From a bacterium (GTDB lineage Bacteria > Patescibacteria > Microgenomatia > Levybacterales > GWA1-39-11), in assembly GCA_021825285.1 (NCBI GenBank), contig JAKAHW010000031.1, positions 1-9,411 on the forward strand: 9,411 nt of DNA, written 5' to 3'. The notes beneath the pieces were generated by a model that saw only the letters and a list, made by a program, of their open reading frames with translations, was not told the origin of the DNA and searched no databases. Below are positions 4,825 through 5,341 of the stretch, piece after piece. Each line of letters opens with the position of its first letter. The first letter of the stretch is position 1. A program made the translations under genes and the position numbers.

Positions 4825-5073
4825 TTAAACGGTGTGGGGGACTTCGGTATAGGGGTTTCTTCCGGTGACAATCAAATTTATTCCTGCAAGCACTTCCAGC
4901 AATTGCTTATCATTCATTTGTCGACAAGCTAAAATGATAGTGTTAATGGGAACCAATGGTGCTGCTTCTGCATTTCCCTGAGCCAAAAGATGAGTAGAAG
5001 CAACAAACTCTCCATGGACACCTGCTCCATTTGAAGCTACTTCCCCTCTAGGTCCTCCTTCAAGTGTCCTCAT
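4825..5073 (-). CDS. Hypothetical protein, 82 residues
   Basis: Not recognised. I place the start at the ATG at 5073. A TTG at 5091 in the same frame would add six residues, but it lies upstream of the predicted transcription start: the -10 CATAAT ends six bases before the ATG. The product starts MRTLEGGPRGEVASNGAG, has a mildly hydrophobic middle with one Cys (APLVPINTIILAC, 38-50) and a leucine-rich helix NDKQLLEVLAGINLIVTG (54-71), and ends PYTEVPHTV. No signal peptide or membrane helix is convincing. The stop is TAA at 4825. It runs convergent to the nuclease-like gene and divergent from the candidate small RNA at 5192. The frame is probably coding because promoter, start and length agree, but there is no family support. 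Confidence 0.5.
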   Translation of the reverse strand: MRTLEGGPRGEVASNGAGVHGEFVASTHLLAQGNAEAAPLVPINTIILACRQMNDKQLLEVLAGINLIVTGRNPYTEVPHTV

Positions 5074-5079
5074 ATCCTT

Positions 5080-5107
5080 ATTATGCTCCAAATTTTGGAA
5101 TAATCAA
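5080..5107 (-). promoter_or_regulatory. Promoter of the 82-residue hypothetical protein
   Basis: On the minus strand TTGATT (5102-5107, 4/6), 16-base spacer, CATAAT (5080-5085, 5/6), then six bases (AAGGAT) to the ATG at 5073. This decides the start codon against the TTG at 5091, which lies upstream of the expected transcript. Confidence 0.6.
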
Positions 5108-5156
5108 TAGCTTCTTCATTTTTAATTTTGCTAGGTTTTGATATGGTTTTTGTCCA

Positions 5157-5185
5157 TTGACAAAGGATGGGGCAAGGGATATAAT
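5157..5185 (+). promoter_or_regulatory. Perfect consensus sigma-70-type promoter
   Basis: TTGACA (5157-5162), exactly 17 bases, TATAAT (5180-5185). Both boxes and the spacing are consensus, the strongest promoter in the window. Transcription should start near 5192-5193 and meet the terminator at 5248-5270. Confidence 0.85.
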
Positions 5186-5191
5186 GATACA

Positions 5192-5270
5192 TACTTTAAA
5201 TATGAAAGTATTTAAGGTAGGAATTCTAGCAATAGAGTTTCGGCAGGAAAACCCCGCAAGGGGTTTTTTT
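5192..5270 (+). ncRNA. Candidate structured small RNA of about 80 bases
   Basis: The unit lies between a perfect promoter and a rho-independent terminator in a gap without a credible gene. Three hairpins can be drawn. The first is ATACTTT (5191-5197) with AAAGTAT (5205-5211), loop AAATATG. The second has nine pairs including two G-U, 5220-5228 with 5233-5241, and a GCAA tetraloop at 5229-5232. The third is the terminator stem, also with a GCAA loop. The linkers are purine-rich, and AGGAA occurs before both GCAA hairpins (in GTAGGAA and GCAGGAA). An ATG at 5202 opens 29 codons (MKVFKVGIL and onward), but that frame runs straight through the terminator stem and T-run, lacks a Shine-Dalgarno and does not follow the leaderless spacing of its neighbours. 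A non-coding RNA is therefore more likely than a peptide. It matches no RNA family I know. Confidence 0.6.
5248..5270 (+). terminator. Rho-independent terminator
   Basis: AAAACCCC (5248-5255), GCAA tetraloop (5256-5259), GGGGTTTT (5260-5267), inside a run of seven T (5264-5270). It ends the candidate small RNA. Read on the minus strand the stem is followed by only four T, so it may weakly stop transcription coming from the 198-aa gene as well. Confidence 0.88.
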
Positions 5271-5341
5271 GTGCCCATTTTTCCACGATAATAAAGACAC
5301 TAATCATCTAAGCTCAAGGAATTAAAAGGCTTCAACTACGA

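Follow-up and report, generated by a model that had tools for sequence, protein, structure and literature searches.

A candidate family of three-hairpin non-coding RNAs with GNRA tetraloops in Microgenomatia

The bacterial small SRP RNA (4.5S) is a single hairpin of ~80-110 nt with a GNRA-type tip and internal loops that bind Ffh, and 6S RNA (SsrS) is one long hairpin of ~180 nt with a central bubble that resembles an open promoter. The CsrB/RsmZ sponge RNAs are defined by GGA in their hairpin loops, and the AbcR/NfeR-type sRNAs of alphaproteobacteria combine three stem-loops with their own promoter, a Rho-independent terminator and exposed anti-Shine-Dalgarno loops. The RNA described here is predicted from a 9,411-nucleotide stretch of a Levybacterales genome (contig JAKAHW010000031.1, hereafter the window) and shares features with each of these systems. 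It is similar in size to 4.5S RNA and has a GNRA-type tip, but has three hairpins and no RF00169 match. With 6S RNA it shares the proposed style of a stand-alone structural RNA that acts via protein binding, but it folds into three short hairpins, as do all of its relatives folded below, and the window RNA has no Rfam match. Tandem hairpins with the terminator last, and the proposed protein-binding style, recall CsrB/RsmZ; however, the loops are GNRA with a single exception (TTTT), unlike the GGA loops that define that type. The promoter, the three stem-loops and the Rho-independent terminator are arranged as in the AbcR/NfeR type, but the RNA has no single-stranded loop seed. A literature search whose broad queries covered the best-ranked matches found no title on small structured RNAs of Microgenomatia.

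The window has no match to Rfam 15 at E≤1, and ARAGORN finds no tRNA or tmRNA in it. Thirteen member and analogue loci searched at E≤5 give seven matches, of which four are tRNAs elsewhere; the RNAs themselves match no family above threshold, and the overlaps below threshold are to Thr_leader (24.7 of 55 bits, L057) and EF0408_EF0409 (19.7 of 440 bits, L111). The small SRP RNA model RF00169 finds nothing in the 82 genomes of the order under stricter filters (11 of 14 controls positive) and nothing over its cut-off in 24 RNA-bearing genomes under laxer filters (four of the 24 match at E≤10, the best at 0.44). The Ffh M domain (PF02978) is found in none of these 24 genomes and in 14 of 14 controls. 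An earlier reading of the window, made from the sequence alone (the sequence-only reading), could assign the RNA to neither tRNA, tmRNA nor SRP RNA, which these searches bear out. SRP RNA is thus rejected as an identity, in the absence of an RF00169 match and of an Ffh M domain. We further note that the SRP itself, searched for as Ffh and small SRP RNA, seems to be missing from these genomes, whose bins may be incomplete.

The unit lies on the forward strand. Its −35 box TTGACA (5157-5162) and −10 box TATAAT (5180-5185) are separated by a 17-bp spacer, giving a 12/12 match to the sigma-70 consensus (5157-5185) that ranks first among 30 promoter-like sites in the window (mean of 20.8 in shuffled sequence). 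An upstream promoter element, TTTGCTAGGTTTTGATATG, occupies 5127-5145 on the same strand and ends 11 bp before the −35 box; it consists of two TTTTGnTA units spaced about one helical turn apart. From this promoter an RNA of ~80 nt is predicted, with its 5′ end near 5191-5193, and the promoter's strength suggests that the RNA is abundant. The terminator at 5243-5272 has 13 pairs, the most among the 14 terminator-like sites listed for the window, and a T7 tract lies in the 3′ arm of its hairpin.

The region 5190-5275 folds at -36.9 kcal/mol (z = -7.85), and none of 200 dinucleotide shuffles is equally stable. Its hairpins abut: within the 81 nt of 5192-5272, 34 base pairs and 12 loop bases leave a single linker base. 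Predicted fold and covariation define P1 (5192-5219, 12 bp, GAAA tetraloop at 5204-5207), P2 (5220-5241, 9 bp, GCAA tetraloop at 5229-5232) and P3, the intrinsic terminator (5243-5272, 13 bp, GCAA tetraloop at 5256-5259), all on the forward strand. The P2 apex, CUAGCAAUAG, is common also among members outside the order. The sequence-only reading had thus correctly recognised the perfect consensus promoter, the strong terminator and three successive hairpins, and had erred in details of the fold: its first stem, given as 5191-5211, stops short of the full helix, and the ATG that it put inside the first loop straddles the border of stem and loop (5202-5204). The two GCAA tetraloops that it named are those of P2 and P3, but GNRA loops number three. 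The AGGAA copies that it pointed out are present at 5219-5223 and 5245-5249, but both fall within stems, and they are not conserved together. Among close relatives, L024, L054 and L025 have the second copy alone, and L056 has neither; the larger sister clade keeps AGGA at the first place only. AGGAA repeats are accordingly rejected as a family motif, the pair not being conserved among homologues.

Judged by its GlyRS, the window very probably belongs to a Microgenomatia (CPR) genome: the protein shares 87% identity with its counterpart in Levybacteria CG2_30_37_29 and 81% with the one in Levybacteria RIFCSPLOWO2_12_FULL_39_17. The syntenic relative L002 shares 85% identity with the window RNA over 94 nt, or 76% over 157 nt once the promoter is included; the GlyRS gene is 75% identical over 1370 nt and recO/DUF4012 70% over 764 nt. 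With the window as query, blastn finds matches in 28 of the 82 order genomes (E≤0.01) at 31 places. Thirty of these were extracted, and those with a legible promoter, three hairpins and a terminator were kept as sequence homologues, 22 loci from 21 genomes. Eleven of the 22 were folded singly and give z of -4.2 to -8.5. The eight loci dropped are of several kinds: L070, at a contig end, is a member (L176); L077 was later counted in the 35-RNA set described below; the place of L078 was recovered as L109; L076 (L179) is without P1; L055 (L181) and L073 (L134) have three hairpins but count as analogues; and L079 and L080 are non-members.

Covariance models extend this range, with E-values that are rough by the search tool's own account. 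Model R2 matches 32 of the 82 order genomes at E≤0.01 and 27 at E≤1e-6; drawings of all 27 show three hairpins in every case but one (G016, locus L179), which is without P1. Model R1, run over 373 genomes of the class, matches 78 at E≤0.01, mostly undrawn between that threshold and 1e-6, and 29 at E≤1e-6. Ten of these 29 fall outside the order's 82 (G261, G190, G129, G289, G254, G365, G301, G120, G298 and G309); nine carry three-hairpin RNAs and one (L110) has two hairpins. L111, in G257, is a further three-hairpin RNA (R1 E = 1.1e-6), and in G088 R1 finds two copies 0.8 kb apart. The fold is kept, with changed letters, in more than 30 other tiny, uncultured bacteria. Its distribution is patchy, as 55 of the 82 order genomes are without an R2 match at E≤1e-6: the RNA is either not universal in the order, or has diverged past the model, or has been lost in incomplete bins.

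Beyond the class the signal fades. R2 matches 28 of 379 phylum genomes at E≤0.001, and the eight that match at E≤1e-10 had all been recognised before as members from the class, six being among the order's 82; this search gives no confident new group. Among 13 genomes of other classes and phyla, outside the order, five match R2 at E≤1, the best at 8.5e-4. Twenty-five weak places were drawn (all 22 from the phylum search and 3 of 10 from the 13 other genomes): 19 are without a promoter-like site of at least 10/12 just upstream, and many are plainly ordinary terminators. L129 in G612 (E = 7.2e-4) combines an 11/12 promoter with a CTAGCAATAG hairpin and may or may not belong to the family. A scan for the architecture, which ignores letters apart from promoter and GNRA loops, recovers 30 of 34 known members; in 61 other loci (1.07 Mb, including the 744-kb G006 contig) it finds only the L002 homologue, and in shuffled sequence none. 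A phage origin was considered through two exact patterns, which have no exact match in viral contigs.

Compensatory changes were assessed on MAFFT alignments built without structure, one of 15 order members (A2) and one of 18 members covering several subtypes (A4). The modelled pairs are formed in 95.2% of cells in A2 and 89.8% in A4. In A4, 25 of 31 pairs are altered on both sides, and all ten modelled P1 pairs are changed on both sides somewhere. The covariation scores, 0.349 for A2 (shuffle mean 0.221) and 0.540 for A4 (shuffle mean 0.254), are reached by none of 500 shuffles in either case; the shuffles ignore kinship, and the sequences tested are also those that supplied the structure. 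When the 3′ arms are slid by 1-3 columns, every measure drops in both alignments. Compensatory base changes, the mark of a structured non-coding RNA, are thus found under both shuffling and sliding controls. When all 23 RNAs (the window and its 22 homologues) are aligned without refinement, RNAalifold predicts only the top of P1 and P3; P2, variable in length, is misaligned there.

A wider set of 35 RNAs joins the window and the 22 homologues with 12 others; it excludes L110, with its two hairpins, and L112, which is the same place as L107. All 35 fold with three hairpin loops. The five loop-proximal pairs are formed in 97.1% of cases in P2 and 94.9% in P1, against 59.9% and 67.6% with the arms shuffled, in counts anchored on loops that were placed by folding each RNA singly to minimum energy, a procedure biased towards pairing. 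GNRA loops make up 104 of the 105, the exception being TTTT (L075), in a count that is not blind, as later matches were picked partly by models carrying GNRA loops. In the background (loci of ten relatives, 280,236 bases with both strands counted), GNRA accounts for only 13 of the 416 tetraloop hairpins whose stems have at least 7 bp, and for 10 of 412 once the L002 RNA is masked. This count speaks against GNRA loops being usual in the terminators of these loci. Among the places found later, L180 has a UUCG loop and L181 has non-GNRA loops; because of these and the TTTT loop, selection may act on stability and not on GNRA recognition. P2 is the best-kept hairpin across subtypes: across the 35 RNAs its loop is GCAA in 32 and the second pair from the loop is U-A in 30, while in A4 its base pair is G-C or G-U in 18 of 18 and purine mismatches occur within it.

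The promoter is conserved along with the fold. With the best-scoring site taken in each of the 23 RNA promoters, TTGACA is kept in 19, the spacer is 17 in 19 and 18 in 4, and the −10 box is exactly TATAAT in 7. The upstream element WTTGSTATNNTTTGAYATA is present with at most 4 mismatches over 17 positions at 18 of the 23, and its distance to the −35 box is 10 or 11 bp, also at 18 of the 23; L025 and L057 are without it (7 mismatches each). In 11 long loci scanned at up to 2 mismatches, it occurs elsewhere only at two places in L006, with no good promoter there. Across 20 genomes the pattern is uncommon, with 17 matches against 5 for the reversed pattern; seven of the 17 are at the three-hairpin RNA, and a promoter-like site of at least 9/12 follows just two of the other ten. 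The natural reading is that the element would be an activator site or an UP-like contact. The sequence-only reading had looked to related CPR genomes for homologues, for compensatory changes in the first two stems and for a conserved promoter, and all are found there: 27 of the 82 order genomes and 10 further class genomes match, A2 and A4 score above all of their shuffles, and the promoters keep TTGACA and the spacer as given above. On comparative sequence grounds, the unit looks like a real RNA family with a conserved fold and no Rfam match.

How such an RNA might work is suggested by its compactness. We give about even chances to a stand-alone non-coding RNA of Microgenomatia that acts in trans by its folded shape and is bound by a protein or RNP at P2. 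The strong promoter, with its own upstream element, would yield an RNA of ~80 nt that is little beyond three stacked tetraloop hairpins, the last one the terminator. This RNA would be very stable, recognised by its shape and bound by a protein or RNP partner, with P2 as the putative recognition hairpin through its GCAA apex, purine-rich internal loop and G-C or G-U closing pair. It would then serve as a sponge or scaffold RNA, of the 6S and CsrB style though not of their families. Action in trans through shape appears most likely because the window RNA has one unpaired base outside its loops and because the stems swap letters and keep their pairs; a constant shape, stable loops and the strong promoter point the same way. 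The binding site is placed at P2 because P2 is best kept across subtypes. The protein or RNP step rests on base pairing being disfavoured in the window clade.

That last point bears on a trans-encoded antisense sRNA, which would pair with target mRNAs through its hairpin junctions (AGGCAGGAG after P1 and CCCCGAAAA after P2) and which we regard as unlikely. A promoter of its own and an intrinsic terminator are present by consensus, as in such sRNAs, and in the larger sister clade the junction letters are well kept, partly single-stranded and could pair with RNA. In the window, however, the first junction sits within stems and the second is absent, and the AGGCAGGA that follows P1 is not kept in the window clade (L024, L054, L025 and L056). 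Seed pairing is unlikely for the window RNA because it has a single unpaired linker base, and GNRA loops are poor at base pairing.

The genomic neighbourhood points to an independent gene. In 30 loci drawn with ORFs called by length only, neighbouring genes differ and both orientations occur. obgE is present in 7 of 41 compared loci: in six it faces the RNA tail to tail, with 0-5 nt between it and the end of the match, and in one it lies upstream on the same strand. A gene for a secreted-looking protein recurs in 6 loci, of which L111 is from outside the order, and MscS-type, UPF0182 and recO/DUF4012 neighbours recur within small groups of loci. As the downstream genes vary in identity and strand, a cis-regulatory leader or riboswitch is rejected; the variation suggests an independent gene with some inherited synteny. 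The tail-to-tail obgE ends, together with T-rich stretches on either side of the terminator stem on both strands, would also suit a unit that works at the DNA level only, a bidirectional terminator and promoter insulating or interfering with the neighbours and yielding the RNA as a by-product. We consider this quite improbable, since P1 and P2 covary though a terminator does not need them, and the neighbours change in identity and orientation.

A GNRA loop is a classic tertiary-contact module, and its near-constant presence on the three hairpins would fit an RNA whose tips dock onto a large RNA, for example that of the ribosome, a machine reduced in this class. This idea leans on Microgenomatia being reported to be without helix H78 of 23S rRNA (PMC12641178). 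The UUCG and TTTT loops and the patchy distribution across the order speak against it, and we hold docking to be very unlikely. More doubtful still is its fuller form, a class-specific structural RNA whose stacked GNRA-capped helices would dock onto the reduced ribosome or another RNP and replace a lost part in trans.

That the unit encodes a short peptide, in 29 codons starting with the ATG of 5202, is barely credible: the frame is open in the window and, from GTG, in three of the four closest relatives (L024, L054 and L056), but it is stopped in L025, an ATG lies near this place in only two of the other 22 RNAs (L067, stopped at once, and L059, stopped after 5 codons), and 5 of the 23 have no start codon at all in their first 60 nt, frames and ends varying. 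Starts and stops thus do not keep the frame (5202-5291) across the 23 RNAs, and their comparison supports the earlier impression that no credible gene lies between promoter and terminator. On the opposite strand of the window, an ORF at 4825-5091 (−) matches no Pfam family, and another at 5081-5278 (−), which overlaps the RNA, is most likely spurious.

An RNA that occurs across a class of uncultured bacteria, with an upstream element, strong covariation and, in the window, a perfect-consensus promoter, is a concrete first target for study, and its covariance model is usable for annotation. Shape-based binding of the three-hairpin RNA would also raise the question of which RNA-binding partner it has, in genomes apparently stripped even of SRP.

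Other units were also seen. L143, L146 and L147 (L146 at ~1000-1520, − strand) share a promoter that carries similar TTTGCTATAGGTTTGACAGACTTGACA repeats; behind it come a conserved ORF of ~46 aa and then a long, well-conserved, hairpin-rich stretch with no Rfam match at the gathering threshold. In two genomes of the phylum search, L115 and L119 (~1501-1581 of the match) contain a similar unit of a hairpin and a GCAA terminator near the RNase P RNA gene. Genome G068 has two more short units of tandem tetraloop hairpins (L113 and L134) with little sequence likeness to the three-hairpin RNA, whose promoters match the consensus at 8/12 in L113 and 10/12 in L134.
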